A stretch of 64,000 bases of DNA from Yoonia sp. SS1-5 (lineage in GTDB: Bacteria > Pseudomonadota > Alphaproteobacteria > Rhodobacterales > Rhodobacteraceae), in NCBI RefSeq assembly GCF_038443705.2, contig NZ_CP151767.2, positions 2,232,001 through 2,296,000 of the forward strand, in the 5' to 3' direction. The stretch's first letter is position 1. Each line of letters opens with the position of its first letter. The notes under the pieces are model-generated. The model saw only the letters and a list, made by a program, of their open reading frames with translations. It had not been told where the DNA came from and searched no databases. The translations under genes were made by a program, and so were the position numbers. Shown here piece by piece: positions 5,176 through 23,515 of the stretch.

Positions 5176-6963
5176 ATGATTTTTCATCCCAAGACAGGTA
5201 TCAAGACGCAAATGGACCAACCCTCCCCCTCATTCAGCCGCACCCTGTCCGCACGGGTGGCCCGCATTTACCCCGATCTGGACGCCGATATTCTCGCCAG
5301 CAAGATCATTGATGCGTTCTGGCCCGAGGGGACACATCGCCGCAAACGCGGCCGGACGCCCAGCAACGCCCTGTGGTCGCAGTCAGATGCGCTGTTGATC
5401 ACCTACGGCAATTCCCTGATCGACGGGATGCATAAGCCGCTGGATCTGATGAACGACTTTCTTCGCCGGTATCTGCGCGGATCGCTGAACGGCGTGCATA
5501 TTCTGCCGTTTTTTCCGTTTACCTCTGACGATGGATTTGCGGTTTCGGATTTCCGCGCGGTCAATCCGCAATTGGGCGACTGGCCGGACATCAACCGCAT
5601 CGCGGATGAATTCAAACTGATGTCCGATCTGGTGCTGAACCATGTCTCAAGTCAGGGCAACTGGTTCAACGCCTACCGGCAGGGGCAGCCGCCTTATGAC
5701 AAGTTCTTTTTCGAGGCCTCGCCTGACGATGACCTCAGCATGGTGGTCCGCCCCCGGACCACCCCGCTCTTGCGCGAGGTTGAAACGATCAATGGCCCTC
5801 GTCACGTCTGGTGCACGTTCAGCCATGATCAGATTGATGTTGATTTCCGCAATCCCGAGGTGCTGCTTGAATTCCTGCGGATCATCCGCCTGCATGTCGA
5901 TAACGGGGTCGAAATTATTCGGCTGGATGCGGTCGCATTTGTCTGGAAGGAAGTTGGATCGCCCTCAATCCACCTGCGCCAGACCCATGAAATCGTCAAG
6001 CTGCTCCGCCTGCTGTGCGATTTTGCCCAGGAACCAATCATCCTGCTGACCGAAACCAATGTGCCGAAAGCCGAGAACCTCAGTTATTTCGGCAACCGGG
6101 ACGAAGCCCATGTCATCTACAACTTTCCCCTGCCGCCTCTGATCCTGCACGCGATGATGTCCGGCACCGCCAAACACCTCGCGAAATGGCAGCGCGCAAT
6201 GCCACCTGCGCCGCTGGGATGCGCCTATCTGAATTTCACGGCCAGCCATGACGGGATCGGCATGCGCCCGGCCGAGGGCCTGTTATCGCCTGATGATCAG
6301 GCAGCTGTCATTGCAACGGTTAAGGATGTCGGCGGATTGGTATCCATGCGCGCCCTGCCTGACGGCGGCGAGGCACCGTATGAGCTGAATACAACCTTCT
6401 TTGCCGCGATGAGCCAGACCTTCGCCGGCCCCGATGCCTATCATATCCCCCGTTTCATTTGCTCGCAGACCATCGTGATGTCGCTCGAGGGTATTCCGGC
6501 GTTCTACATCCACTCCCTTCTTGCCACGCCAAACGACCATGACAGCGTCGAAAAGCGCGGCATGAACAGGGCGATCAACCGGCACCGGTGGGATTACCCG
6601 ACGCTCCGCACGCTTTTGGATGACCCGGGCAGTCCGCAATCATCCGTGATGAACGCCCTGCGTGATCTGTTGCGCATTCGCAAGGCGCAACCGGCCTTTC
6701 ACCCCAATGCCACCCAATTTACCGTGCGCACCGGCGATGAACGCGTCTTTGCCTTATGGCGGCAAAGCCTTGATCGCCGCCAGTCCATCTTTGCCCTGCA
6801 CAATGTCAGCGCAGAAGAGGTCATAATTCCGGTGGTCAGCCTGAACCTGATCGCGGATGAACATTGGGCTGATTTGCTATCTGACGATCAGGGCTGGTCA
6901 GAAGACGATGACATTGTTCTGGCGCCCTACCAATGCCGCTGGATCAGCAACATGCCAGGGTAG
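5176..6963 (+). CDS. ggaP: GH13_18 sugar phosphorylase, probable glucosylglycerate phosphorylase
   Basis: A 595-residue (beta/alpha)8 glycoside phosphorylase of the sucrose-phosphorylase subfamily. The expected nucleophile is Asp 251 in IIRLDAV, the acid/base Glu 293 in LLTETNVP, and the stabilising Asp 359 in TASHDGIG. It resembles E. coli YcjM and the glucosylglycerate phosphorylases, sharing blocks such as LLPF-P-SSDDGF, VRPR and HLW-TFS-DQID, more than true sucrose phosphorylases. It converges, with a seven-base gap, on genes for glucosyl-3-phosphoglycerate synthase and phosphatase, which strongly favours glucosylglycerate plus phosphate giving glucose-1-phosphate and glycerate. Start 5176 is uncertain; ATG 5212 is the alternative and neither has a strong ribosome binding site. 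Confidence 0.82.
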   Translation: MIFHPKTGIKTQMDQPSPSFSRTLSARVARIYPDLDADILASKIIDAFWPEGTHRRKRGRTPSNALWSQSDALLITYGNSLIDGMHKPLDLMNDFLRRYLRGSLNGVHILPFFPFTSDDGFAVSDFRAVNPQLGDWPDINRIADEFKLMSDLVLNHVSSQGNWFNAYRQGQPPYDKFFFEASPDDDLSMVVRPRTTPLLREVETINGPRHVWCTFSHDQIDVDFRNPEVLLEFLRIIRLHVDNGVEIIRLDAVAFVWKEVGSPSIHLRQTHEIVKLLRLLCDFAQEPIILLTETNVPKAENLSYFGNRDEAHVIYNFPLPPLILHAMMSGTAKHLAKWQRAMPPAPLGCAYLNFTASHDGIGMRPAEGLLSPDDQAAVIATVKDVGGLVSMRALPDGGEAPYELNTTFFAAMSQTFAGPDAYHIPRFICSQTIVMSLEGIPAFYIHSLLATPNDHDSVEKRGMNRAINRHRWDYPTLRTLLDDPGSPQSSVMNALRDLLRIRKAQPAFHPNATQFTVRTGDERVFALWRQSLDRRQSIFALHNVSAEEVIIPVVSLNLIADEHWADLLSDDQGWSEDDDIVLAPYQCRWISNMPG

Positions 6964-6970
6964 TCGCCCC

Positions 6971-8191
6971 TTACGCAAATTCTTCGGCATCGGCCGCCGC
7001 CGCCTTTTGCATATCCTGCATGAATGACGGATCGGCCGCGTGGACGCGGTTCCATGTGGGAATGAACGGCGTTTCGTGCGGGTTCTCCAGAAAGAACTGA
7101 CCGGCGCGCATGATGTTGTTTGCAAACAGCTCGATAGATGCCTCCTCGGAGTGCCGGTCAATTGTCAGCCCGTTCATCTTGGCGTCGCTGTAATAGGCTT
7201 CGAGCAAATCAAGCGCGCTGCGGTAATAGGTGGCTTTGAGGGTTCGGAAGACGTTGTTGGTAAAGACCGTCCCATCCGCTGCCAGCTTGCGAAAGATCGC
7301 CTTGCAGATATCCGTCGACATCCGGTTCAGACCAGTTTGCGCATCCTCGGGGCTAAGCGTCTGGTGCTTGTGGTCATAGGCATCCGCGATCTCGACCTGA
7401 CACACGGCCTTTGGGGCCAGATTGCGCCAGGCCTCTGACAGAACCCCGATTTCCAGCCCCCAATCAGAGGGGATCCGCAGGTCCGGCAGGATATTGGTAC
7501 GCATCGCAAATTCGCCCGATAGCGGATACCTGAAACTGCGCAGATAATCGAGATAGTCGCGATCCCCCACCACACGTTTCAGCGCAATCAAGAGCGGGCT
7601 GACCAGCAGCCGGGTCACTCGCCCGTTCAACTGCGCGCCGCCGATCCGGGCATAATACCCCTTGGCCACCTGATAGGGGAATGTCGGGTTGGCCACGGGA
7701 TAGATCAGCCGCGCCAGCATCTCGTTGGTATAGGTGAGGATATCACAATCATGGATCGCCATCACCGCGCTGTCCTGGCAGCCAATCAGGTATCCCAGCG
7801 AGGACCAGACATTCTTGCCCTTCCCCTGTTCGCTGGGCGCCAACCCCATATCCACCAGCCGGGCCTCAAGCGTTTTCATCCGCGGGCTGTCATTCCAGAT
7901 AACGATATGGTTCTGCCCCAGCTCGGAAAAGAACGCCTTTGCATGGCGAAACTGGGCTTCATCCGCCCGGTCCAGACCGATGATAATGCGATGCAGATAG
8001 GTGACCTTGGCCAGCTCTGCCAGAATGTTCGGCATCGCCTCTGTTTCCAGCTCGGAATAAAGACAGGGCAGGATCAATGACATCTTGCGGGTCTGTGCGA
8101 AGGTTTCCAACTCGTAGGTCATCTCGGCATGAGATCGCGTGCGCAGATTATGCAGGGTCGCAATGTTTCCGTTCTGGTGAAAATCAACCAT
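6971..8191 (-). CDS. gpgS: Glucosyl-3-phosphoglycerate synthase (GT81-type glycosyltransferase)
   Basis: A 406-residue GT-A glycosyltransferase expected to transfer glucose from a nucleotide sugar to 3-phosphoglycerate, the first step of glucosylglycerate synthesis. Visible features are the N-terminal nucleotide-binding segment (SLILPCLYSE), a DCD metal motif in AIHDCDILT, and the blocks GRVTRLLVSPLL, PLSGEFAMR and WGLEIGVL, which mirror mycobacterial GpgS. AGGAACGG lies about nine bases before the ATG. Its start overlaps the stop of the upstream phosphatase gene by eight bases, so the two are translationally coupled. Glucosylglycerate is a compatible solute made under salt stress or nitrogen limitation. 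Confidence 0.85.
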   Translation of the reverse strand: MVDFHQNGNIATLHNLRTRSHAEMTYELETFAQTRKMSLILPCLYSELETEAMPNILAELAKVTYLHRIIIGLDRADEAQFRHAKAFFSELGQNHIVIWNDSPRMKTLEARLVDMGLAPSEQGKGKNVWSSLGYLIGCQDSAVMAIHDCDILTYTNEMLARLIYPVANPTFPYQVAKGYYARIGGAQLNGRVTRLLVSPLLIALKRVVGDRDYLDYLRSFRYPLSGEFAMRTNILPDLRIPSDWGLEIGVLSEAWRNLAPKAVCQVEIADAYDHKHQTLSPEDAQTGLNRMSTDICKAIFRKLAADGTVFTNNVFRTLKATYYRSALDLLEAYYSDAKMNGLTIDRHSEEASIELFANNIMRAGQFFLENPHETPFIPTWNRVHAADPSFMQDMQKAAAADAEEFA

Positions 8192-8987
8192 GATTGTCCG
8201 TTCCTGTCTGTATCTCTAATTCTGCCAGTAAGCCGCGCATCGCTGTATTCCAGCCGCGCGGGCCCGTTTCGATGGTGCGGCGGATGCGGCCCTCGGCCTC
8301 GCCCCGCAAAGGGGGAAGTGGCGGGCGATGCGGGTTTGCAACCACGATACCGATATCTGCCGTTTCCAGCATCTCGATATCATTGGGCGCATCGCCCAGT
8401 GCGATAGTGCGATGCGGTTTGTACTGCGCGATGACCGCCGCCATTTGGTCCGCCTTTGTCTTGCCGAAAGACAGGGTCAGAAAACGGCCACCCTCCCGGC
8501 CCTGGATATCATGCGCAGCCAGCGTCTTCAGAAAACGACTATGGGCTGTCGTGTCGCCCGTCCAAAGGCCCGGCTCTGAATGGCGCCGGTCCTTTGCTTG
8601 GGCTGCCGCCGCCGCCGCAAGCCCCGTTATATCCTGCACCTCAGCCACGCTCATATCGCCAAAGCCGCGAAACCCTGCGCGCAGATCATCTGGCAATTTG
8701 TCAAGGACGGCACGAATTTCATCATATGGCGATGACCCAGCATTGTCAGACATCGCCGACAGCAGGCCAGCCCCGTTTTCGACAATGGCCGGCCAATCCC
8801 CCAACCCCATATCGGCCTGCAAAACGCCGATCTCGGCCGCCGTTTTGCTGCTGGCCAGAATGACACCTGCACCACAATCACTCAACGCTTGCAACGCGGG
8901 CCGCGCAGCGGACCAATCATAGGTATCATGATCAAGCAATGTCCCGTCCAGATCGCTGAAAACAAGAAGAGGGGGACGTTTCTGCAT
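8184..8987 (-). CDS. HAD-IIB phosphatase, glucosyl-/mannosyl-3-phosphoglycerate phosphatase family
   Basis: A 267-residue HAD hydrolase. Motif I is FSDLDGTLLD near the N-terminus, motif II is a Ser in ILASSKT, and the C-terminal Asp cluster is ALGDAPNDIEML. This matches the mannosyl-3-phosphoglycerate phosphatase family, which also dephosphorylates glucosyl-3-phosphoglycerate. As the gene ahead of gpgS it should carry out the second step of glucosylglycerate formation. The ATG at 8987 puts motif I about ten residues from the N-terminus as in homologues; a longer frame to 9035 only adds unrelated residues. The sugar (glucosyl rather than mannosyl) is inferred from the GT81 partner. Confidence 0.85.
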   Translation of the reverse strand: MQKRPPLLVFSDLDGTLLDHDTYDWSAARPALQALSDCGAGVILASSKTAAEIGVLQADMGLGDWPAIVENGAGLLSAMSDNAGSSPYDEIRAVLDKLPDDLRAGFRGFGDMSVAEVQDITGLAAAAAAQAKDRRHSEPGLWTGDTTAHSRFLKTLAAHDIQGREGGRFLTLSFGKTKADQMAAVIAQYKPHRTIALGDAPNDIEMLETADIGIVVANPHRPPLPPLRGEAEGRIRRTIETGPRGWNTAMRGLLAELEIQTGTDNHG

Positions 8988-13647: not shown

Positions 13648-13677
13648 GGCGGAACCGATCAGCACAGGGGGTCCCCC

Positions 13678-14742
13678 ATGAAGAAACGTCACTTTTTGAA
13701 AACTGCCATACTCGCCAGCACCATTCTGGCCAGTACTGCTGCACCCGTCATAGCGCAGGAAAAAACCGAATTCCGCGTGGCCTGGTCGATCTATGTTGGC
13801 TGGATGCCCTGGGGGTATCTCGAAGACAGCGGCATCATGGACAAATGGGCGGACAAATATGGCATTGATGTCGAGATCGTGCAGATCAACGACTATGTGG
13901 AATCCATCAACCAGTACACGGCCGGTGCCTTTGACGGTGTGTCAGCCACCAACATGGATACGTTGTCTATCCCATCGGGCGGCGGCGTTGACACCACAGC
14001 CCTGATCGTCGGCGATTTCTCTAACGGGAATGATGCGGTCATCCTGAAGGGCGAGGGCGATCTGGCATCCCTTGCCGGTGCGCCCGTCAATCTGGTTGAG
14101 CTGTCCGTATCCCATTACCTGCTGGCCCGCGCACTAGACAGCGCCGGATTAAGCGAAGCTGATCTTGACGGTGTCATCAATACCTCTGACGCAGATATGA
14201 TTGCGGCCTATGCGACGGATGATGTGCAGGCTGTTGTCACCTGGAACCCGCTTGTGTCCGCCATCATGGAAGAACCCGGCGCAAACAAGCTGTTCGACAG
14301 TTCGGACATCCCCGGTGAAATCATCGACCTGATGGTCGTGAATACCGAAACACTTGCTGCCAATCCTGACTTTGGCAAGGCCATGGTTGGGGCGTGGTAC
14401 GAGGTCATGGGCCTGATGGCTGCCGGTGATGAAGAGGTGCTGACAGCCATGGCCGAAGCATCGGGCACTGATCTGGACGGCTACAAGGCGCAGCTAGCAT
14501 CGACGCAGATGTTCTACGACCCCGCAGAGGCTGTCAGCTTTACCCAAGGCGCAGATCTGCCGGAAACCATGACCAACGTGGCCGCATTCCTGTTGGATAA
14601 GGGTATTCTGGGCGAAGGCGCCCCCTCGCCCGATTTCGTGGGGGTGGAATACCCCGATGGATCCGTAACCGGTGATCCCAATAACGTCACCTTCCGTTAC
14701 GACACGACCTATATGCAGATGGCCGCAGACGGCGCGCTGTAA
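13678..14742 (+). CDS. Guanidine-operon ABC transporter, periplasmic substrate-binding protein (TauA/SsuA-like)
   Basis: A 354-residue periplasmic binding protein of the NMT1/TauA type with a Sec signal (hydrophobic stretch ending VIAQ near residue 28). It contains the family-like blocks EFRVAWSIYVGWMPWGY and GAFDGVSATNMD. It is the first gene of the riboswitch-controlled operon and is followed by a matching permease and ATPase, like the Synechocystis guanidine importer that sits beside guanidine hydrolase there. The predicted ligand is therefore guanidinium. The ATG at 13678 is preceded by AGGGGG, and a TTG at 13645 is rejected because it delays the signal peptide. Confidence 0.85.
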   Translation: MKKRHFLKTAILASTILASTAAPVIAQEKTEFRVAWSIYVGWMPWGYLEDSGIMDKWADKYGIDVEIVQINDYVESINQYTAGAFDGVSATNMDTLSIPSGGGVDTTALIVGDFSNGNDAVILKGEGDLASLAGAPVNLVELSVSHYLLARALDSAGLSEADLDGVINTSDADMIAAYATDDVQAVVTWNPLVSAIMEEPGANKLFDSSDIPGEIIDLMVVNTETLAANPDFGKAMVGAWYEVMGLMAAGDEEVLTAMAEASGTDLDGYKAQLASTQMFYDPAEAVSFTQGADLPETMTNVAAFLLDKGILGEGAPSPDFVGVEYPDGSVTGDPNNVTFRYDTTYMQMAADGAL

Positions 14743-14753
14743 GTTCTGTTCCG

Positions 14754-15566
14754 ATGCGGTTGATCAACAAAAAGCCGGGGCCGGCCCTGTCGGTGTTCCT
14801 TGCGGCATTGCCCTTTGTGCTGATGTTCGTGGCTTACGCCGTGGCGTCGTATTATCGGCTGTTGGAAAACCCATCGGACAAACTGCTTCCGGCACCCGCC
14901 ACGGTGCTGGAAACCGCCCAGCGCCTCTTCACCGAAGGTGACAGGCGTTCGGGCCGCATTCTGTTATGGCACGATACCGCATCAAGCCTGCGCCGACTGG
15001 CAATCGGCGTCGGGCTATCCGCATTGTTCGGACTGGTCTTTGGTTTGCTGATCGGGCTGATCCCGCTGGCCCGCAACACATTGGCCGGATTTGTCGCGGT
15101 GATCTCAATGATCCCGCCATTGGCCCTGTTGCCGATCCTATTCATTGTCTTCGGCCTTGGCGAATTGTCAAAGGTTGTCCTGATTGTCGTTGGCATCCTG
15201 CCATTTCTGATCCGTGATCTAAGCGGTCGCACCCTCGAGATTCCGCGCGAGCAGATCGTCAAGGCCGAGACTTTGGGCGCGTCAACCTGGGTCATCGTTC
15301 TGCGCGTTGGGCTGCCACAGCTATTGCCCCGCCTGATCCAGGCCATCCGCCTGTCGCTCGGGCCTGCCTGGCTGTTCCTGATCGCGGCAGAGGCGATCGC
15401 CAGCGATCAGGGTCTTGGCTATCGCATCTTTCTGGTGCGCCGCTATTTGGCCATGGATGTCATCCTGACCTATGTGATCTGGATCACCTTCCTTGCATTC
15501 GTCATCGACTGGATGCTGAAAACGCTGTCTCGCAAGGCCTTTCCATGGGCGGAGGCCGGGTTGTGA
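14754..15566 (+). CDS. Guanidine-operon ABC transporter, permease
   Basis: A 270-residue inner-membrane permease of the TauC/SsuC (binding-protein-dependent) family with about six hydrophobic segments. The cytoplasmic coupling loop reads EIPREQIVKAETLGAS, the EAA-type motif that docks on the ATPase. It begins 11 bases after the binding-protein gene and its TGA overlaps the GTG start of the ATPase gene, so the three are co-expressed. The role is import of the ligand of the upstream binding protein, inferred to be guanidine from the riboswitch. Confidence 0.86.
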   Translation: MRLINKKPGPALSVFLAALPFVLMFVAYAVASYYRLLENPSDKLLPAPATVLETAQRLFTEGDRRSGRILLWHDTASSLRRLAIGVGLSALFGLVFGLLIGLIPLARNTLAGFVAVISMIPPLALLPILFIVFGLGELSKVVLIVVGILPFLIRDLSGRTLEIPREQIVKAETLGASTWVIVLRVGLPQLLPRLIQAIRLSLGPAWLFLIAAEAIASDQGLGYRIFLVRRYLAMDVILTYVIWITFLAFVIDWMLKTLSRKAFPWAEAGL

Positions 15567-16330
15567 GCTTTGTCGTCGTCGAGAATATTTTCCAAACCTA
15601 TGGAAAGCGCCCGATCATAGAACGGGTGAACCTTACGGTGGCCGAAGGGGAATTCATCTCAATCGTTGGGGCGTCGGGTTGTGGAAAATCCACATTCCTG
15701 CGCCTGCTTCTGGCGCAGGAAAAGCCCACAAGGGGCAGTATCCGCATCGACGGGAACCCACCAGCAACCGAACCCGGACTGGAACGCGGTGTGGTGTTTC
15801 AGAAGTATTCGGTCTTTCCGCATTTGACAGTGCGGGACAATATTGTTGCCGGCGAGGCCTTTCAACGCCCGTGGGGGCGCTTTTTCGGGGCCCCGGCGAA
15901 AGCCGCCCGCGCCCGTGCCGATGAAACGCTTGCCCGATGTGGCTTGGACCATGTGGCAGACCAGTATCCTGCAACCTTGTCGGGCGGTATGCAGCAACGC
16001 CTTGCCATCGGTCAGGCATTGACGGCCAAGCCGCGTGTGCTGTTGCTGGACGAACCCTTTGGCGCGCTTGATCCCGGCACCCGCCTTGCCATGCATGCGT
16101 TCCTGCTGGAATTGCGGGCCGAGACGGGCATGACCGTATTTATGGTCACGCATGACCTGGAAGAAGGGTTCAAGCTGGGCGACCGCGTCCTTGTCTTTGA
16201 CAAGCCGCGCTGGGACCCGACCGACCCAGAGGCTTACGGCGCCACGATTACTTACGACTTTGACGCCCGCGACGGCGGCATCCCTTTCCAGACACTCAAG
16301 GAGGAAACCCATGTTTTTCGGCCCGCCTGA
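15563..16330 (+). CDS. Guanidine-operon ABC transporter, ATP-binding protein
   Basis: A 255-residue ABC ATPase of the TauB/SsuB group. It has Walker A GASGCGKST, signature LSGGMQQR, Walker B VLLLDEPFGALD and the switch His in MVTHD. I chose the GTG at 15563 because it overlaps the permease TGA as GTGA and has GGAGG seven bases upstream; an ATG at 15545 would add six residues. The 3' end overlaps the ureohydrolase gene by 20 bases, and that gene's AAGGAGG site lies inside this frame, so the cluster is tightly coupled. It powers uptake by the preceding two proteins. Confidence 0.87.
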   Translation: MSFVVVENIFQTYGKRPIIERVNLTVAEGEFISIVGASGCGKSTFLRLLLAQEKPTRGSIRIDGNPPATEPGLERGVVFQKYSVFPHLTVRDNIVAGEAFQRPWGRFFGAPAKAARARADETLARCGLDHVADQYPATLSGGMQQRLAIGQALTAKPRVLLLDEPFGALDPGTRLAMHAFLLELRAETGMTVFMVTHDLEEGFKLGDRVLVFDKPRWDPTDPEAYGATITYDFDARDGGIPFQTLKEETHVFRPA

Positions 16331-17555
16331 GCGCACGCGCTCTCACAACCCGCGCGATATGCGCCATGATGCGGCCCGGCCGCACCACCCTGACCTGACC
16401 AAGCTGCGCGGCTGGAAGGCAATGCAGGCCGAGGCGGATATCCCCGAGGGTCGCTGGGATGAAGAACGCCGCTGGGCCCTGCGCATGGGTTTGACCGGCG
16501 CAGACACAATCGAAGACAAGTCTATCCCGACCTTCGCGCGCGGTGAGCTGCCGCATTATGCGGGCATCAACACCTTTCTCAAGGCGCCTTACGCCGAAGA
16601 CGTGACAGAGGTGAAAGACTATGACGCAACCGTCCTTGGCATTCCTTTTGACGGCGGGACAACCTACCGCCCGGGCACCCGCTTTGGCCCGCAGGGGCTG
16701 CGCAAGATCAGCGCGCTTTATACCCCGTATAATTACGAGCTGGGTGTGGATTTGCGCGAGCAGATGACACTCTGCGACGCGGGCGACGTGTTCACCATCC
16801 CGGCCAATATCGAAAAAAGCTTTGATCAGATCAGCCGCGCCGTCAGCCACGTGTTTTCTTCGGGCTCGCTGCCGATCATGATTGGCGGGGATCATTCCAT
16901 CGGGTTCCCCTGCGTGCGCGGCATCGCGGAATGCACATCTAAGAAGATCGGCATCGTCCATTTTGACCGCCATGCCGACATTCAGGAAAAGGATCTTGAT
17001 GAACGGATGCACACAACCCCGTGGTTCCATTCGACCAACCTGCCCAATGTGCCAGCCAAGAACCTTGTGCAGGTCGGCATCGGCGGTTGGCAGGTCCCGC
17101 GCGAGGCGGTGAAAGTCGCCCGCGAGCGTGAAACCAACATCATCACCATGGGCGACATGGAAAAGATGGGGATCGACAAGACCGCTGAAATGGCGCTCGA
17201 AATGGCGTGGGACGGCGTCGACATGGTCTATATGTCCTTCGATATCGACAGCATTGATTGCGGATTTGTCCCCGGGACCGGCTGGCCCGAACCCGGTGGC
17301 TTCCTGCCTCGCGAGGCGCTGGCCCTCGCCTCTAAAGTGGCGGCCGAGGGTATCTGCGGCATGGAACTGGTCGAGGTCTCACCCCCCTATGACACGTCGG
17401 ACATTACCGCATTGATGGGCACCCGGGTCATTGTGGATGTGCTGGGCTCCATGGTGGCTGCGGGCAAGCTGGGCGCGCATAAGAAACATATCGACAAGCC
17501 CGTTTCCATTCCGCACGGCGAATTCGAAGGAAAGAGGTGGTCCAATGCCACATGA
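16311..17555 (+). CDS. gdmH: Ureohydrolase-family enzyme, probable nickel-dependent guanidine hydrolase
   Basis: A 414-residue arginase/agmatinase-fold enzyme with a long N-terminal extension (about 105 residues before the fold begins at YDATVLGIPFDGG). The binuclear metal ligands are present: His 195 (GGDHS), Asp 219, His 221 and Asp 223 (DRHAD), and Asp 311 and Asp 313 (SFDIDSID). Two places differ from common agmatinases: DRHAD where DAHxD is usual, and DCGFVPGTGWPEPGG where DPxxAPGTGTPxxGG is usual. With the guanidine-I riboswitch and dedicated importer upstream, guanidine to urea plus ammonia is the best-supported reaction. The ATG at 16311 has a perfect AAGGAGG; a frame reaching back to 16152 overlaps the ATPase gene and is rejected. 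Confidence 0.85.
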   Translation: MFFGPPERTRSHNPRDMRHDAARPHHPDLTKLRGWKAMQAEADIPEGRWDEERRWALRMGLTGADTIEDKSIPTFARGELPHYAGINTFLKAPYAEDVTEVKDYDATVLGIPFDGGTTYRPGTRFGPQGLRKISALYTPYNYELGVDLREQMTLCDAGDVFTIPANIEKSFDQISRAVSHVFSSGSLPIMIGGDHSIGFPCVRGIAECTSKKIGIVHFDRHADIQEKDLDERMHTTPWFHSTNLPNVPAKNLVQVGIGGWQVPREAVKVARERETNIITMGDMEKMGIDKTAEMALEMAWDGVDMVYMSFDIDSIDCGFVPGTGWPEPGGFLPREALALASKVAAEGICGMELVEVSPPYDTSDITALMGTRVIVDVLGSMVAAGKLGAHKKHIDKPVSIPHGEFEGKRWSNAT

Positions 17556-17970
17556 CATTGTCGGTGGCCATATCGGCCACAATCACAGCCACGGCGATCA
17601 CCTGCACAGCCATATGGACGCCGCCGACGAGGCCGCCGCCATTCAGGTGCTTGCGACCCAGTTCATTGACGGTTTCGTGCAGGCCGCGGATAAAACCGCC
17701 TATCTGCGTCTTGCCGGTGTGCCGTTCGAGAAACCCGGCAAGGCCGGTCCAAAGGCGCTGAAGCTGGTTGATGTCCAACTGGCGACGGATTGGCAGGTCG
17801 GCACGGCCTCGCCATCATTTGGGTCCCGCGAGCTAAGCTATCTGCCGTTCCCCGGCGAGATGGTTTCAGAGCGGACCAACATGTCACTCGTCTATGTGTC
17901 GCTGGACGAGAAATCATCGACGGATATTCGCGACTTTCTTTTGGCCAAAAAATCGGAGCTCGACCAATGA
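17545..17970 (+). CDS. Histidine-rich, cysteine-free protein of the guanidine operon (candidate metal-handling accessory)
   Basis: A 141-residue soluble protein of a family I do not recognise. Its N-terminus is strikingly histidine-rich: eight His within residues 3-23, in HIGHNHSHGDHLHSH and the preceding PHD. The remainder is a compact alpha/beta-looking domain ending in a basic/acidic helix (FLLAKKSELDQ). It overlaps the guanidine hydrolase gene by 11 bases and has GAGGTGG before its ATG. Guanidine hydrolase is a nickel enzyme that in Synechocystis needs HypA/HypB-like helpers; this protein has no cysteine and so no HypA zinc site, and no P-loop as in HypB. A nickel-storage or delivery role is inferred from the His tail and context. 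Confidence 0.75.
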   Translation: MPHDIVGGHIGHNHSHGDHLHSHMDAADEAAAIQVLATQFIDGFVQAADKTAYLRLAGVPFEKPGKAGPKALKLVDVQLATDWQVGTASPSFGSRELSYLPFPGEMVSERTNMSLVYVSLDEKSSTDIRDFLLAKKSELDQ

Positions 17971-18131
17971 TCAAGACTGCAATTGCCCTTCTGCTTGCAA
18001 CCACAATGCCCGCATGGGCCCATCACAGCGCGCCCGAGGCACATATGCCGACAGCCGCGCCTGCGTTGGCCATTGTCGTCCTTGTCGCGATGGTGTGCGC
18101 CGCCTTCTATCAGCGGCACAAGGCCCGCTAG
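17967..18131 (+). CDS. Small exported/membrane protein with histidine motif, last gene of the guanidine operon
   Basis: A 54-residue protein. It starts with a signal-peptide-like segment (residues 1-18, ending PAWA) and is followed by HHSAPEAHMP. One further hydrophobic helix (LAIVVLVAMVCAAFY) and a basic tail (QRHKAR) complete it. Its ATG overlaps the stop of the His-rich gene (ATGA), with GGAG about nine bases upstream, and its stop overlaps the convergent bhcD stop by four bases. The layout suggests an inner-membrane protein presenting a periplasmic His cluster, perhaps for metal capture, but no family is recognised. Confidence 0.6.
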   Translation: MIKTAIALLLATTMPAWAHHSAPEAHMPTAAPALAIVVLVAMVCAAFYQRHKAR

Positions 18132-19093
18132 ATATCCACCTTGATCGCAACCCCTTTGGCCGCGGCAAGTGCGACGACAGCAGCCGCGACCGCAAGGTCC
18201 TGCAAGCCAACACCGGTGCCGTCAAACAGCGTGATCTGATCGGGGCTGATCCGCCCCGGATGGGTGCCGTTGATGACGGCACCCAGCTGGTTGATGTCGC
18301 CTTCGCTGATCAACCCAGCCGCGATGGCGTGCTGTGCCTCACCGAGGCTGATCGCCTGTGCAACCTCATCGGTGAAGACGCCGGATCGCGCCAGCAACGC
18401 GGCCTCGACCTCTTGCTTGCCCTTCGTGTCGGTGCCCATGCAGGCAATATGCGTCCCGGGTGATACGTGACCGGCCATCAGTGACGGCGCGAAGGCCGAG
18501 GTGATAGAGATGATAACGTCCGCCTCGACCATCCCGTCTAGCTGCACAGCTTCGAAGGGCAGGCCTGCTTCCTGCGCCACTTTCGCGATGTTGGGCAGCA
18601 TTTCGGGGTGATAGTTCCAGCCGATGACCTTTTCAAAGCGCCGTTGTTCCAATGCAGCGCGCAGCTGGAATGTCGCCTGATGGCCGGCCCCGATCATCCC
18701 GATCACCTTTGCGTCTGGCGGGGCCAGATGCTTGATGGACACCGAGGATGCAGCGGCAGTGCGCAGTGCCGTCAAAAGATTGCCGCCCACCATCGCGCTG
18801 GGTTTGCCCGTATCGGGATCGAACAGGAAGACCGTGGATTGGTGGTTGATCAAATCGCGCTTTTCAAGGTTGTGGGGCCAGTAGCCGCCAGCCTTCAGGC
18901 CCAGTGTCAGCCCCGCCTGATCAAACCCCCCTTTGAAACCATAAAGCGCTTCTTCATGGCCAATCGCCTCGCGCACGACCGGAAAGTTGTAGGCGTCACC
19001 GGCGGCCATGGCCGCAAAGACCTGTTCGACCGCATCAAAGGCCGCCGCCCGGGTCATCAGATTGGCGATTTCACGTTCAGGGACGATCAACAT
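18128..19093 (-). CDS. bhcD: Iminosuccinate reductase of the beta-hydroxyaspartate cycle (ornithine cyclodeaminase/mu-crystallin family)
   Basis: A 321-residue Rossmann-fold enzyme of the ornithine cyclodeaminase family (dinucleotide motif GMIGAGHQA near residue 130). In the beta-hydroxyaspartate cycle BhcD reduces iminosuccinate to aspartate with NAD(P)H, regenerating the amino donor for BhcA. Assignment as BhcD rather than ornithine cyclodeaminase rests on its place as the last gene of bhcABCD. An 86-base gap separates it from bhcC. No clear ribosome binding site is visible before ATG 19093, so the start is moderately certain. Confidence 0.88.
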   Translation of the reverse strand: MLIVPEREIANLMTRAAAFDAVEQVFAAMAAGDAYNFPVVREAIGHEEALYGFKGGFDQAGLTLGLKAGGYWPHNLEKRDLINHQSTVFLFDPDTGKPSAMVGGNLLTALRTAAASSVSIKHLAPPDAKVIGMIGAGHQATFQLRAALEQRRFEKVIGWNYHPEMLPNIAKVAQEAGLPFEAVQLDGMVEADVIISITSAFAPSLMAGHVSPGTHIACMGTDTKGKQEVEAALLARSGVFTDEVAQAISLGEAQHAIAAGLISEGDINQLGAVINGTHPGRISPDQITLFDGTGVGLQDLAVAAAVVALAAAKGVAIKVDI

Positions 19094-19179
19094 AAGGAAA
19101 GCTTTCGAACAAGGGGATGGCGGCCCGCATTTTCAGCGGGCGTCCAGAAGTTTGCGATTAACGGCAGCACGGGCAGATA

Positions 19180-20343
19180 TCAGTACGCTTTGCCACGCGC
19201 CGACACCGGCCAAAGCGTCTCGACCTTGCCGTTGCGCACGCCCACATACCAATCATGCACGTTGCAGGTCGGGTCGCAGTGACCCGGCACCAGTTTCAGC
19301 CGGTCATTCACTTTCAGAACGCCATCGGGGTCACCGACCACCCCATGCTCGTCTGAGCATTTCAGATATGCCACATCGTCGCGCCCGAAAATGGTGGGCA
19401 GGCCGCTATCGACCGATTGCGCCTTGAGCCCCGCATCGACAATCGCTTTGTCGGCCTTTGCATGGCTCATCACGGTGGTCAGGATAAACAGCGCATTTTC
19501 CCATTCGGCCTGATCAATCCGCTGACCATCCTTGTCGAGGATCCGCCCATAATCGGCGTCCATGAACGCATAGGACCCGCATTGCAGTTCATCATAAACG
19601 CCAGAGTTGCTTTCGAAATAGTAAGACCCGGTGCCACCGCCGCCCACGATATCGCAATCCAGCCCAGCGGCTTTCAGCCCGTCGACCGCATCGGCGACCT
19701 GCGCAATCGCCACGTCAATCTTGGCCTTGCGATCATCATAGCTGTCCATGTGCTGCATGGCGCCCTGATAGGCCTGAATGCCTGCGAATTTCAGACCATC
19801 GGCTGCGTCAATCAGTTTCGCAATCTTGACCACATCGGCGGTGGTTGTGACCCCGCACCGCCCTGCACCACAGTCGATTTCCACCAGACATTCGATTTGC
19901 GTGCCATGTTTCGCTGCCGCCGCCGAAAGATCAGCAACATTGGCGGGATCATCGACGCAACACAGCACACGGCAGCCAAGTTTGGGCATCTGCGCCAACC
20001 GGTCAACCTTGGCCGGGGCGGTCACCTGATTGGACACCAAAACATCCTTGATCCCGCCACGGGCAAAAACCTCGGCCTCGGACACTTTCTGACAGCAGAC
20101 CCCGACGGCACCGCCCAAGGTTTCCTGCAACTTGGCCACATCCACCGATTTATGCATCTTGCCGTGGACCCTGTGGCGCATGCCATGGGCCTTTGCATAA
20201 TCGCCCATCTTCTTGATGTTGCGTTCCAGCGCGTCCAGATCAAGCACCAGACAAGGCGTCTGGATGTCGGCCTCGTCCATGCCCGGCAATGCGGGCACGT
20301 CGTAGCCCACCTCAAGCCCGTTCAGATTGACATGCGTGTTCAT
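19180..20343 (-). CDS. bhcC: Beta-hydroxyaspartate aldolase (PLP enzyme, D-threonine aldolase-like)
   Basis: A 387-residue fold-type III PLP enzyme related to D-threonine aldolases and D-serine dehydratases. The N-terminal PQTPCLVLDLDALERN-like segment and the Lys-containing RVHGKMHKS (PLP Lys near residues 59-62) are typical. In the cycle it condenses glyoxylate and glycine to (2R,3S)-beta-hydroxyaspartate. GGGAGAG precedes the ATG, and the gene follows bhcB after 12 bases. Near the C-terminus GHCDPTCN supplies the His/Cys metal-binding residues expected in this family. The call over generic D-threonine aldolase is set by the surrounding bhcA, bhcB, bhcD and bhcR. Confidence 0.92.
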   Translation of the reverse strand: MNTHVNLNGLEVGYDVPALPGMDEADIQTPCLVLDLDALERNIKKMGDYAKAHGMRHRVHGKMHKSVDVAKLQETLGGAVGVCCQKVSEAEVFARGGIKDVLVSNQVTAPAKVDRLAQMPKLGCRVLCCVDDPANVADLSAAAAKHGTQIECLVEIDCGAGRCGVTTTADVVKIAKLIDAADGLKFAGIQAYQGAMQHMDSYDDRKAKIDVAIAQVADAVDGLKAAGLDCDIVGGGGTGSYYFESNSGVYDELQCGSYAFMDADYGRILDKDGQRIDQAEWENALFILTTVMSHAKADKAIVDAGLKAQSVDSGLPTIFGRDDVAYLKCSDEHGVVGDPDGVLKVNDRLKLVPGHCDPTCNVHDWYVGVRNGKVETLWPVSARGKAY

Positions 20344-20355
20344 CTGTCTCTCCCT

Positions 20356-21306
20356 TCATAGCGTCCATGGCAGCGTGTCGAGGTCGACATTGCCACCTGT
20401 TATGATCACACCGACCCGCTTGCCTGCGAACCGGTCCTTGTTCTTGATGATCGTGGCAAGCGGCACCGCGCAGCTGGCCTCGATCACGATTTTCATCCGT
20501 TGCCATGTCAGCTTCATCGCGCTGATGATCTCGGCCTCAGAGGCGGTCAGGATGTCGGTCACGTGGTTGGACACGAAGTGCCATGTCAAATCCTTCAGCG
20601 GCACCTTCAGCCCGTCCGCGATTGTATCGGGCGCATCATCGGCGATGATATGCCCCGCCTTGAAGCTGCGATATGCGTCATCGGCCTGCGCAGGCTCGGC
20701 GGCGATGATCTGCACCTCGGGCGCGATATTGGACAGGGTCAGGCATGTGCCCGAAATCATTCCCCCGCCACCAATCGGGGCGACAACCATATCCAGACCG
20801 TCAGTTTGTTCGATCAGTTCCCGGCTGCAAGTGCCCTGACCCGCGATAACCCGTGGGTCATTATAAGGATGGACGAAGTCCCCCCCTGTCGCAGCCTGAA
20901 CACCAGTAAACACTGCCTCGCGGGAGGTCGTGGATGGATCGCATTCCGTGATGATACCGCCATAGCCCCTCACTGCGTCTTTCTTTGCCTGCGGCGCTGT
21001 GCGCGGCATGACAACATTGCAGGGAATGCCCCTGCGGCCTGCCGCATACGATAATGACAGCGCGTGATTGCCCGATGAATGGGTGCAAACCCCCTTGGCC
21101 GCTGCCGCCTCGTCCAGCCCAAAGACGGCGTTGGACGCGCCACGTACCTTGAACGCGCCCGCCTTCTGGAAGTTCTCGCATTTGAAGAAAAGCTGCGCAC
21201 CGGTCAGATCGTTCAGATAGGCAGAGGTCAGCACCGGCGTCCGGTGAATATACGGGGCGATCCGGCCATGCGCGGCCAGCACATCCGCGAAAGTTGGTAT
21301 TTGCAT
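20356..21306 (-). CDS. bhcB: Beta-hydroxyaspartate dehydratase (PLP enzyme, serine/threonine dehydratase-like)
   Basis: A 316-residue fold-type II PLP enzyme of the serine racemase / threonine dehydratase group. The PLP lysine is in FKCENFQKAGAFKVRGA, the substrate loop is HSSGNHALSL, and the phosphate-binding glycine loop is PIGGGGMISG. BhcB dehydrates beta-hydroxyaspartate to iminosuccinate. The ATG at 21306 has AAGGA seven bases upstream; an ATG at 21321 overlapping the bhcA stop would add five residues, and a longer frame inside bhcA is not credible. Confidence 0.92.
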   Translation of the reverse strand: MQIPTFADVLAAHGRIAPYIHRTPVLTSAYLNDLTGAQLFFKCENFQKAGAFKVRGASNAVFGLDEAAAAKGVCTHSSGNHALSLSYAAGRRGIPCNVVMPRTAPQAKKDAVRGYGGIITECDPSTTSREAVFTGVQAATGGDFVHPYNDPRVIAGQGTCSRELIEQTDGLDMVVAPIGGGGMISGTCLTLSNIAPEVQIIAAEPAQADDAYRSFKAGHIIADDAPDTIADGLKVPLKDLTWHFVSNHVTDILTASEAEIISAMKLTWQRMKIVIEASCAVPLATIIKNKDRFAGKRVGVIITGGNVDLDTLPWTL

Positions 21307-21320
21307 ACTGCTATCCTTCA

Positions 21321-22511
21321 TCAGGCCGCATCCCGTTGTGTGTTGGCAGGGTGCGCGCGGTAGTATTCCTGCGCCGCTGCAACGCCCGAACCCAGCCTGA
21401 TATCCAGACCAAGATCCGCCATACACATCTCGGCCGTTGCGATCCCGCTCAGCATCATGACATCTGTCAGGCTGCCCAGATGGCCGATCCGAAAAACCTT
21501 GCCCGCAACATCACCCAGACCAACGCCAAAGGCCACGCCGTATGTGTCTGCCGCATGGGTGACGATATCTGTCGCATTGAACCCCGCTGGTGTGCAGATT
21601 GCGGTCACCGTGTCGGAGTAAAGATCAGGCGAGGCCGCGCAGAGGCCCAGGCCCCAGGCGTCTGCTGCCGCCCGGACCCCTGTGGCAATACGGGTGTGCC
21701 GGGCAAAGACATTGTCCAACCCTTCGGTCAGCAGCATGTTGCATGCCGTATTCAGCCCGTTCATCAGCCCAACAGCCGGCGTGTAAGGATAGGCCCCCTT
21801 GGCATACCCTGCCGCCATGTCGCGAATATCAAAGAAAGTTCGTGGTAGGGTCGCGTCGTGGGTGGCGGCGATTGCCTTCTGGCTCAGGCCAAGAATAGCA
21901 AGCCCGGCAGGCAGCATGAACCCCTTTTGTGACCCGGTCACCGCAGCATCAACGCCCCATTCGTCAAACCGGAAATCCATCGACCCGATGGACGACACCC
22001 CGTCAACAAAAAGCAGTGCGGGATGCCCTGCTGTATCAAGCGCCCTGCGAATAGCCGCAATATCAGATTTCACACCGGTCGCAGTTTCATTATGGGTCGC
22101 CAGGACAGCCTTGATGGCATGGTCCTTGTCGGCCGTCAGGATGTCCTGATACTGATCGGCAGGTATTCCCGCCCCCCAGGGGACATCGACGATCCGCATA
22201 TCCAACCCATGCCGTTCACACATGTCGATCCAGCGATGCGAAAACATACCGTTGCGCGCCGCCAGAACCGTGTCACCGGCGCTGAGACAATTGGTCAACG
22301 CAGTTTCCCAACCGCCGGTCCCTGTCGCCGGAAAGATGAAAATCTCGGCGTCAGTACTTTTGATGATCCGGCGCACGCCTTCGCGGGCAGGATGCAGGAT
22401 CTGGCCAAACAGGGACGACCGATGATCAATCGTTGGCATGTCACATGCCTTGCGCAGGTTTTCGGGGATATTTGTTGGCCCCGGGATAAATACTGGGTTT
22501 TGAAAGCTCAT
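21321..22511 (-). CDS. bhcA: L-aspartate:glyoxylate aminotransferase of the beta-hydroxyaspartate cycle
   Basis: A 396-residue class V PLP aminotransferase (serine-glyoxylate / alanine-glyoxylate type). The PLP lysine is Lys 196 in VTGSQKGF, the cofactor Asp lies in LLFVDGVSSIG, and the N-terminal FIPGPTNIP is typical of the family. It makes glycine and oxaloacetate from glyoxylate and aspartate, the entry and exit step of the cycle. GAGGAGGAG gives a strong ribosome binding site before the ATG. It is the first gene of the leftward bhc operon, facing the regulator gene across 164 AT-rich bases. Confidence 0.92.
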   Translation of the reverse strand: MSFQNPVFIPGPTNIPENLRKACDMPTIDHRSSLFGQILHPAREGVRRIIKSTDAEIFIFPATGTGGWETALTNCLSAGDTVLAARNGMFSHRWIDMCERHGLDMRIVDVPWGAGIPADQYQDILTADKDHAIKAVLATHNETATGVKSDIAAIRRALDTAGHPALLFVDGVSSIGSMDFRFDEWGVDAAVTGSQKGFMLPAGLAILGLSQKAIAATHDATLPRTFFDIRDMAAGYAKGAYPYTPAVGLMNGLNTACNMLLTEGLDNVFARHTRIATGVRAAADAWGLGLCAASPDLYSDTVTAICTPAGFNATDIVTHAADTYGVAFGVGLGDVAGKVFRIGHLGSLTDVMMLSGIATAEMCMADLGLDIRLGSGVAAAQEYYRAHPANTQRDAA

Positions 22512-22675
22512 CGCTGTCTCCTCCTCGTTGAGGCCGTTTTACATCGAGTCGATGCGGAGTGAAATTTTTTTGAAATTATTTTTCAAAAATGAAAAAACGT
22601 AGAAATTTGTTTGTTGTCAGTGGTTTGATTTTTTCATAATGTGAAAACGAATTTTATTTATTTGCGAGAATACGG
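22512..22675. promoter_or_regulatory. bhcA-bhcR divergent promoter region with two inverted repeats
   Basis: This region is very AT-rich compared with its surroundings. Site 1: TTTTTGAAA (22567-22575) and TTTCAAAAA (22581-22589) are perfect inverted arms with a five-base spacer. Site 2: TTTTCA (22631-22636) and TGAAAA (22642-22647), again with a five-base spacer. The shared TTTTCA/TGAAAA pattern suggests two binding sites for one dimeric protein. BhcR is known to bind the bhc promoter and to respond to glyoxylate, so these are the likely BhcR sites. Confidence 0.65.
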
Positions 22676-23515
22676 ATGGCAACAGCACATGATGAGGCAG
22701 ATGGACCCCGCCGCGCCCGGGGCCGTCCGCGTGACTGGCATGACAAAACGGCCCAAAATACGATCAAATCGCTCGACCGTGCTATGGCGGTGTTGGAATT
22801 CCTGAGCGAGGCGCAGGGCAAGGCGCTGACCACCATATCTGATCAGATGGGCCAATCGCCCGCGACGGTCTATCGCATACTCGTCACGCTGGAAGGTCGG
22901 GGTCTGGTCGAGTTCGATCCGGCCGAACAGGTCTGGCACATCGGGTCACAGGCCTTTGTCATCGGCGCCCGTTTTCTGCGGCGCACCAGCCTTGTGGAAA
23001 GGGCGCGCCCCATCTTGCGCAAGCTGATGGAGGACACTGGCGAAACCGCAAATCTGGGAATTGAAAAGGACGGGTCGGTGCTGTTTGTCAGCCAGGTCGA
23101 GACCCATGCCAGCATTCGCGCCTTCTTTCCGCCCGGCACCATGTCACCGATGCACGCATCAGGCATCGGCAAGGCGCTGCTGGCACATATGGATGACGCC
23201 CGGCTGGCACGCATCTTGGGGGATCGTAGCCTCGACGTGTTCACACCACATACACTGGCTGACATATCGGCGTTGCGCGCTGATCTCGATACAATCCGCA
23301 GTGCCGGGTTTTCGATTGATGGCGAAGAAAAAAACCTTGGGATGCGCTGTATTGCGGCGCCGGTCTTTGACGTCCATGACGAAGCGGTTGCCGGGATCTC
23401 CGTCTCTGGCCCCATCAGCCGCGTCGGCAAGGACGACATTGAACGGCTGAGCCAATCGGTGATGGCTGCAGCGCGATCACTGTCACAAGCGATCGGTGGC
23501 GACGTCCCCGCATAG
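22676..23515 (+). CDS. bhcR: IclR-family regulator of the beta-hydroxyaspartate cycle
   Basis: A 279-residue IclR-type regulator. A basic N-terminal extension (RRARGRPRDWHDK) precedes the winged helix-turn-helix (about residues 30-90, with TTISDQMGQSPATVYRIL). The IclR effector domain follows, including HASGIGKALLAH and IAAPVFDVHDEAVAGISVSGP. It is divergent from bhcA, the arrangement known for BhcR, which controls bhcABCD in response to glyoxylate. ATG 22676 has only a weak ribosome binding site. Confidence 0.9.
   Translation: MATAHDEADGPRRARGRPRDWHDKTAQNTIKSLDRAMAVLEFLSEAQGKALTTISDQMGQSPATVYRILVTLEGRGLVEFDPAEQVWHIGSQAFVIGARFLRRTSLVERARPILRKLMEDTGETANLGIEKDGSVLFVSQVETHASIRAFFPPGTMSPMHASGIGKALLAHMDDARLARILGDRSLDVFTPHTLADISALRADLDTIRSAGFSIDGEEKNLGMRCIAAPVFDVHDEAVAGISVSGPISRVGKDDIERLSQSVMAAARSLSQAIGGDVPA

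Follow-up and report, generated by a model that had tools for sequence, protein, structure and literature searches.

How does a guanidine hydrolase that probably depends on nickel obtain its metal when the operon encoding it carries no HypA/HypB-like helpers? The question is raised by Yoonia sp. SS1-5 (Rhodobacteraceae), in which a window of 64,000 nucleotides (contig NZ_CP151767.2, positions 2,232,001 to 2,296,000 of the forward strand) contains gdmH, a gene for a ureohydrolase-family guanidine hydrolase of 414 amino acids (aa) (window positions 16311..17555). It is followed on the same plus strand by two small genes, one for a His-rich protein of 141 aa beginning with MPHD, the main subject of this analysis (17545..17970), and one for an exported-looking peptide of 54 aa with a single putative transmembrane (TM) helix (17967..18131). 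Judged from sequence, the two genes most likely make up a nickel-accessory system that is dedicated to this enzyme, represents a new protein family, and replaces the HypA/HypB-like pair GhaA/GhaB. The original prediction, made from the letters of the window, had described both products accurately: a recount gives a Cys-free 141-residue protein with eight His among its first 23 residues, HHSAPEAH occupies residues 19-26 of a 54-residue, exported- or membrane-looking protein with one hydrophobic stretch, and the order, strand, and link to the hydrolase gene are as described, with overlaps of 11 bases between gdmH and the 141-aa gene and 4 bases (ATGA) between the two small genes.

Association of the 141-aa gene with gdmH

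Two groups of enzymes were distinguished by their identity to the window enzyme, namely, clade A, comprising gdmH products that are 69-100% identical, and clade B, comprising ureohydrolases at 52-56%. The clade A set consists of 44 genomes, the window included, of which 11 come from a sample of the class, 5 from a sample of the phylum, and 28 from the order of genome G532. In all 44, the 141-aa gene is located downstream of gdmH on the same strand, at no more than 550 bases from match to match. Within the class sample (385 genomes), a 21-sequence profile detected the 141-aa gene in 12 genomes and gdmH (threshold E <= 1e-60) was detected in 14, with both present in 10; an 11th genome, G107, encodes a divergent copy beside gdmH (tblastn, 28% identity, E 3e-13), and the three gdmH-like hits without the 141-aa gene, two of them cut by contig ends, are 52-56% identical and belong to clade B. 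Across the phylum samples (398 genomes), gdmH and the 141-aa gene occur in the same seven, and a 44-row profile, partly built from those genomes, found nothing in the other 391, so that a widespread His-rich passer-by protein was rejected as an explanation. The order of G532 was represented by 297 genomes, of which 34 gave a hit, and of the 32 new loci that were fetched, all 28 at 69% identity or more have an adjoining 141-aa gene, as does none of the four at 53-56%.

The same picture emerged from the best 80 of 181 loci found with one peptide pattern (hereafter, named loci), the titles of which refer nearly all to Rhodobacteraceae or Roseobacter-group genera and in two cases only to 'Alphaproteobacteria': gdmH (86-96% identity) lies directly upstream in 79, and the 80th contig starts 16 bases before the match. 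Wide occurrence away from gdmH, which the original prediction had regarded as damaging to its proposal, is thus not what the 141-aa gene displays in the named loci or in the 398 phylum-sample genomes. Chance open reading frames (ORFs) were rejected as well because the same gene order recurs in relatives, with the 141-aa gene after gdmH in the 44 clade A genomes and a fixed 4-base overlap at the position of the 54-aa gene. The 141-aa gene goes with gdmH rather than with the transporter genes of the operon, given that locus L145 combines a guanidine-I riboswitch, gdmH, and the 141-aa gene and has no match of at least 90 bits to the binding protein or the permease of the window operon.

In a tree of 58 ureohydrolases, which includes 48 clade A rows (7 from named loci; L203, L204, and L206 were left out) and 4 clade B rows (without L205 and L051), a single branch (support 94/83) has all 48 rows with the 141-aa gene on the same side, a distribution that fits a single gain, and 96% of the 200 bootstrap trees need one change for the gene. 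Of the remaining rows, the enzymes of Synechocystis and Nitrospira come closest; the join between these two is flagged as a long-branch one, and the branches leading to the outgroup are very long as well.

Two class-sample genomes have a broken or cut copy of the 141-aa gene and no gdmH hit. In G125 (L043, 7091-7357), a remnant that is interrupted by an in-frame stop and lacks its N-terminal half lies beside a DUF3299/ABC/FtsX cluster, and in G365 (L047, 12256-12932), close to a contig end, a cut substrate-binding-protein gene abuts, in another frame, a 141-aa core with a His-rich C-terminal tail. Decay or misassembly would account for the former, and deletion, decay, or misassembly for the latter, although these origins are unproven.

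Exchange of the 54-aa peptide with HupE

In the window peptide, the HHSAPEAH motif (18021..18044) directly follows a plausible signal-peptidase site, AWA↓H, recognized by eye, and precedes the hydrophobic stretch, a putative TM helix (18063..18110; 19-residue hydropathy peak of 2.44); the peptide has one Cys. Of 81 loci (the 80 named loci and the window), 64 have an ORF of 35-130 aa that begins exactly on the stop codon of the 141-aa gene, through ATGA in 58, GTGA in 5, and TTGA in 1. Four of these were set aside, L076, L088, and L130 for want of the signal/TM make-up and L109 as truncated, leaving 60 loci (59 named loci and the window) with a peptide of 47-77 aa that combines the 4-base overlap, x-x-A/S↓H, and then a hydrophobic stretch; L105, one of the 60, misses the first hydropathy cut-off of 1.6 and passes one applied after the cleavage site. 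In all 60 kept peptides, the residue that follows the predicted cleavage site, as judged by eye and with a regular expression, is His; 43 have HxH within 16 residues, and a basic end is usual. A tblastn search with the window peptide found none of the related-slot peptides, and, by sequence comparison, the peptide in this slot is fast-evolving and less constant than the 141-aa gene. Similar peptides are encoded near the same place, without the exact overlap, in L144, L201, L202, and L203, and another is found in L040.

In a further group of clade A loci (L147, L178-L184, and L186), the gene next after the 141-aa gene encodes HupE/UreJ, in six of the nine with the same 4-base overlap as the 54-aa gene; the PF04955 domain was confirmed in L147, in part of the L178 protein, and in the clade B locus L205. 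This exchange between HupE and the peptide in one operon slot suggests nickel and is the best independent pointer to it. The window peptide itself has no PF04955 match up to E 1 and no HPxxGxDH motif, and the related peptide of L202 reaches E 0.023 at the HupE N-terminus. According to PMC12537917, anglerase domains beside HupE/UreJ-2 expose the first post-signal His to catch metal.

Elsewhere in the same genome (L136), a DUF6732 gene (6946-7155) overlaps by 4 bases a gene for a CbiX chelatase with a His-rich C-terminus (7152-8348). The DUF6732 protein has a signal-like start, an AHPGH...GHDH stretch, and one TM segment, and CbiX adjoins DUF6732 in 30 of 30 loci examined out of 43 match rows (L133 and L217-L245 among the loci).

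Conserved features of the 141-aa protein

The eight His of the N-terminal segment are at positions 3, 9, 12, 14, 16, 19, 21, and 23. No Pfam or NCBIfam family reached its cut-off on the 141-aa protein and no Pfam model covers 57 of its relatives, of which at least 1488 are present in the protein database; 132 of 156 database proteins of the family are Cys-free. Between 0 and 22 His precede the core across these 156 proteins, so that the His tract cannot be the essential part; it has moved to the C-terminus in one relative (P0144), and very His-rich versions have as many as 28 His over their full length. The MPHD start, by comparison, is present in 146 of the 156 proteins, that of the window included, and persists in 10 of the 11 relatives whose N-terminal segment has at most two His. 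Because Met before Pro is normally removed, MPHD would yield Pro-His-Asp, whereas in Met-His the Met is normally kept; in distant lineages, many members start with Met-His and single ones with Met-Ala-His or Met-Gly-His. A predicted processed NH2-X-His end is thereby found in 150 of the 156 database proteins, versus 3 of 63 ORFs of at least 200 aa with an ATG start in the window. Comparison of the sequences thus indicates that the N-terminal NH2-X-His, rather than the His tract, is the conserved and more constant feature of the family. According to PMC7055735, the MHE motif of HypA binds Ni via the N-terminal amine together with His2; the N-terminal amine is used by RcnR and NmtR as well. The new nickel system envisaged in the original prediction is thus supported in part, by comparative genomics: the co-occurrence of the 141-aa gene with gdmH and the presence of HupE in the 54-aa slot are in favor, and a correction is needed in that the His tract is not what is conserved.

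The MPHD and His-rich segment (residues 1-23; 17545..17613) is predicted to be disordered, with a predicted local distance difference test (pLDDT) score below 50 at residues 6-13 and 17-24 of the AlphaFold model, and contains His12-Asn13 of a GHN motif that is invariant in all 36 rows reaching that part of the 44-row alignment. It is followed by a predicted folded core (residues 26-140; 17620..17964), modelled with helices at 26-46 and 50-56, six strands, and a C-terminal helix. The mean pLDDT over the whole protein is 83.8 (predicted template modelling score 0.67), and ten-residue blocks from residue 31 to 140 score 88-97. Foldseek and VIA-align comparisons with the PDB gave no clear structural relative of the modelled core. 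The residues of the core that are invariant in 44 diverse members (F40, D49, L54, L74, P90, P101, and P103) include neither His nor Cys, which suggests that the core is a docking rather than a metal-holding domain.

The hydrolase and the HypA/HypB complement of the genomes

The best PDB matches of the window hydrolase are 7esr/7oi1 (E 6.4e-164) and 9fek (E 4.7e-161), with the next best at 8e-51. These entries were deposited as 'probable/putative agmatinase 2' and are, as we take it, the Synechocystis and Nitrospira guanidinases. The motifs GTTYRPGTRFGPQG, RMHTTPW, and GTGWPEPGG, which would bear the residues diagnostic of guanidinases, are present in the window enzyme when it is aligned to 9fek. 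The diagnostic Trp, which together with Thr and His positions forms the guanidinase criterion given in PMC11410670, is found in all 42 clade A enzymes with a readable motif. A guanidine-I riboswitch was detected in the window and in four of five clade A relatives searched (L046, L049, L145, and L147), and the Rfam search of the fifth, L040, yielded none over the cut-off. By sequence criteria, the window hydrolase is a GdmH-like guanidine hydrolase, and it is probably nickel-dependent.

The absence of HypA/HypB-like helpers noted in the original prediction extends, as far as HypA goes, to the genome, which is 4.47 Mb long and 99.97% complete. It has no match to HypA (PF01155) and six matches to the cobW/HypB/UreG family, four of which were checked on NCBIfam and correspond to UreG, a full CobW, a sub-threshold CobW-like protein, and MeaB. 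None of these four reaches the HypB cut-off (UreG scores 73.6, with 121.2 needed), and the other two, weak matches that were not run on NCBIfam, score 28 bits (L009) and 20 bits (L011). A dedicated HypAB pair elsewhere in the genome, the other outcome that the original prediction had considered adverse, was therefore not found, in that there was no HypA and no HypB over the cut-off. The genome does contain a urease cluster (UreG by NCBIfam, ureC by eye) and one HupE/UreJ gene beside CobW. HypA is absent from 8 of the 11 clade A genomes of the class sample and lies on another contig in the other three.

Related ureohydrolases of clade B

The 141-aa gene is absent from all five clade B loci in which the DNA downstream can be seen, a count outside which stand G064 and G007, both cut downstream by contig ends, in G007 also through the region of the insert described here. 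In all six readable clade B enzymes (L050, L051, L205, L207, L208, and L209; that of G064 was read from L051), a His-rich insert, such as HHDHSHMHD, comes right after RMHTTPW, close to the active site. The diagnostic Trp is replaced by Thr or Ser in five of five readable clade B enzymes, and an Rfam search of L205, L207, and L209 gave no guanidine-I riboswitch over the cut-off; a different guanidino compound may therefore be the substrate of clade B, whose His insert can be compared to the clade A arrangement only by analogy. A search for HypA in three clade B genomes (G064, G079, and G007) gave no match. HupE follows the clade B gene in L205, and in L207 the clade B gene is followed by a gene for a 62-aa peptide with AHGSGVHFHSH and no 141-aa gene. 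A 141-aa-family hit 4 kb away in L207 (29%, E 0.006) was taken as chance because it was not recovered on re-search.

A model of nickel supply and the alternatives

We regard it as rather likely that the 141-aa protein is, as its sequence and associations indicate, the nickel-accessory protein of clade A GdmH, an estimate that is grounded in clade A and HupE and therefore unaffected by the missing Trp of clade B. The two genes would then constitute a nickel-supply module dedicated to one GdmH clade. The exported 54-aa peptide would act as a membrane-anchored periplasmic nickel catcher, whose N-terminus after cleavage would be a free His with more His next to it, and it, or HupE, would collect nickel at the inner membrane; the peptide would partner a separate permease, through which nickel would enter, with a whole HupE permease in its stead in other lineages. 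The 141-aa protein would be a cytoplasmic metallochaperone without nucleoside triphosphatase (NTPase) function that holds Ni(II) with its NH2-X-His end and variable His tract, docks through its conserved core on nascent or apo GdmH, aided by coupled translation, and passes the metal to the dinuclear site of GdmH in place of GhaA/GhaB. This model builds on the observed gene order, overlaps, co-occurrence, slot exchange with HupE, and motif conservation and on the modelled core; its molecular details, be it nickel as the metal, its binding, the docking on GdmH, the hand-over, Met removal, signal-peptide cleavage, or the permease partnership, each carry lower confidence than the overall role.

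Several observations weigh against this model. All loci, among them the best 80 of the 181 of the GTDB scan, are alphaproteobacterial as far as seen. Of the 80 named loci, 21 have no clear 54-aa peptide; HupE takes its place in only 9 of the 44 clade A loci, and HupE is, according to PMC7689651, a family of nickel or cobalt permeases. Comparison of the peptide with HupE by hhalign gave a probability of 49% with only the signal region aligned, so that homology is unproven. The core of the 141-aa protein presents no obvious metal site, and some members have a single His in the segment (L046 and P0134-P0142). In 43 fetched loci with starts assigned by script, NH2-X-His was obtained in 32, one of them spurious (L179, counted only because the script found no start codon, as was the case in L194), and of the other 11, six were seen by eye to have Met-His in frame at a later position. 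The Nitrospira guanidinase was active as a recombinant enzyme at low nickel occupancy and without a known chaperone, as reported in PMC11410670, which implies that an accessory may not be strictly needed. The reports on HypAB and metformin hydrolase conflict: HypAB was required for activity of the recombinant enzyme in one (PMC11399263), and had no significant effect on the enzyme in Escherichia coli but was needed for growth in the other (PMC11271267).

The 141-aa protein could instead be a structural or regulatory partner subunit of GdmH, that is, a stabilizer, an assembly factor, or a gate, with the His tract as a secondary nickel buffer. The strict pairing with one GdmH clade would suit a subunit, the core is conserved together with the N-terminus whereas the His tract is not, and a precedent exists in metformin hydrolase, which requires a second, metal-free subunit (PMC11399263). 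Against this stand the survival of MPHD/NH2-X-His when the His tract is lost and the finding of HupE in the operon position otherwise taken by the 54-aa gene, and we consider this explanation unlikely. The properties of the His tract, with up to 28 His per protein in the richest versions, a variable length, and the capacity to shift to the C-terminus (P0144), would also be compatible with nickel storage or detoxification, as with Hpn of Helicobacter, the protein soaking up nickel upon induction of the operon and delivering none to GdmH. Members with a single His in the segment, the retention of a folded core with invariant residues, and the linkage to gdmH all argue against such a role, which we hold to be highly improbable.

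Another possibility concerns the 54-aa peptide, which might serve the guanidine ATP-binding cassette (ABC) transporter or sit by chance where it does, so that only the 141-aa gene would matter for the metal. Its absence from the 21 named loci and its strong divergence, such that the window peptide retrieved no counterpart by tblastn, are as expected in that case, and a pattern search did not find the peptide in most sampled non-Roseobacter loci; nevertheless, the conserved His after the predicted cleavage site in the 60 kept peptides, the use of the same overlap position by HupE, the similarly built peptide that follows a clade B gene in L207 without a 141-aa gene, and DUF6732, of the same make-up and beside CbiX in every locus examined, make a dissociation of the peptide from metal supply quite unlikely.

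If the two genes do form a nickel-accessory system, a role is given to two kinds of hypothetical protein and the 141-aa gene is predicted to be the one to co-express for an active recombinant guanidinase. The size of the 141-aa family, which has no Pfam or NCBIfam model, and its fixed link to one GdmH clade make the question testable in alphaproteobacteria, and marine Roseobacter-group bacteria are a prime place to test nickel loading of GdmH; the pair does not by itself explain the comammox case. Exported His micro-peptides could be a general, overlooked part of nickel and cobalt supply. Extending the argument, we tentatively propose that nickel loading of GdmH-type enzymes is accomplished in at least three interchangeable ways, by a HypAB-like pair, by an NTPase-free one-protein chaperone with an unmatched fold and an amine-His site, or by a His-rich loop borne by the enzyme itself next to its active site in the sister clade, the last two with a 'mini-anglerase' in trans or HupE, and that the same pairing serves cobalt in DUF6732/CbiX. 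This broader scheme is possible but doubtful, and our confidence in it was lowered slightly, given that the sister clade is without the Trp diagnostic of guanidinases and that a search of three of its loci gave no riboswitch.

Operon layout and neighboring genes

The operon is headed by the guanidine-I riboswitch aptamer (RF00442; 13471..13580, plus strand; cmscan 80 bits, gathering threshold 63, E 1.7e-13). Upstream of gdmH, on the same strand, are genes for an ABC substrate-binding protein (13672..14742; TIGR03427, 'putative urea', 521 bits against a cut-off of 334), an ABC permease (14754..15566; PF00528, E 1.6e-19), and an ABC ATPase (15545..16330; PF00005, E 4.4e-35). Because the TIGR03427 protein is encoded in a gdmH operon with a guanidine riboswitch, its ligand is probably guanidine; a similar binding protein (tblastn, at least 100 bits) is encoded at 38 of the 44 clade A loci. 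Next to the operon, a convergent cluster extends over 18128-23515 and resembles the beta-hydroxyaspartate cycle, with putative bhcA-D and an IclR-type regulator.

Comparison with known systems

Searches of the open PMC library turned up nothing on the two small genes, within a coverage that did not include the initial GdmH report (Funck 2022). Among the closest known systems are GhaA/GhaB of the Synechocystis gdmH locus, along with HypA/HypB of metformin hydrolase operons. GhaA/GhaB and the genes described here have in common an operon that is headed by a guanidine riboswitch and includes gdmH and ABC transporter genes. The predicted processed N-terminus of the 141-aa protein, PHD or MH, is analogous to the MHE motif of HypA and might likewise be usable for nickel, but the protein differs from HypA and GhaA in having neither the HypA domain nor the zinc CxxC motifs and in belonging to another sequence family, with no PF01155 match up to E 1 and none among the Pfam families matched by the 57 relatives; unlike for GhaA/GhaB, there is no GTPase partner in the window operon.

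In UreE and other His-tailed nickel chaperones of urease, which are small proteins of the cytoplasm, a conserved core bears a His tract of variable extent, and the make-up of the 141-aa protein is similar. However, the His tract of the latter is usually N-terminal, the gene lies beside a ureohydrolase rather than urease, and the UreE Pfam domains give no match up to E 1; the fold comparison, which gave no clear match, decides neither way.

The 54-aa peptide, in turn, resembles HupE/UreJ and the anglerases (Ang-1/Ang-2) in its signal-like start, His at the putative mature N-terminus, and membrane anchor, and it occupies the operon slot that HupE takes in other genomes, but it has only about 36 mature residues and one TM segment, contains no anglerase or HupE domain, and is separate from any permease. 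DUF6732 (PF20506) is likewise similar to the 54-aa peptide in its signal-like start, His motifs, single TM segment, and 4-base overlap with the next gene, although that gene encodes the CbiX chelatase rather than a protein of a gdmH locus, and the best matches between DUF6732 and peptides of the 54-aa type (E 0.0022 for L202 and 0.067 for a Roseobacter member) leave homology unproven. By analogy, the DUF6732 and CbiX pair looks like a cobalt counterpart of the 141-aa protein and its 54-aa partner.

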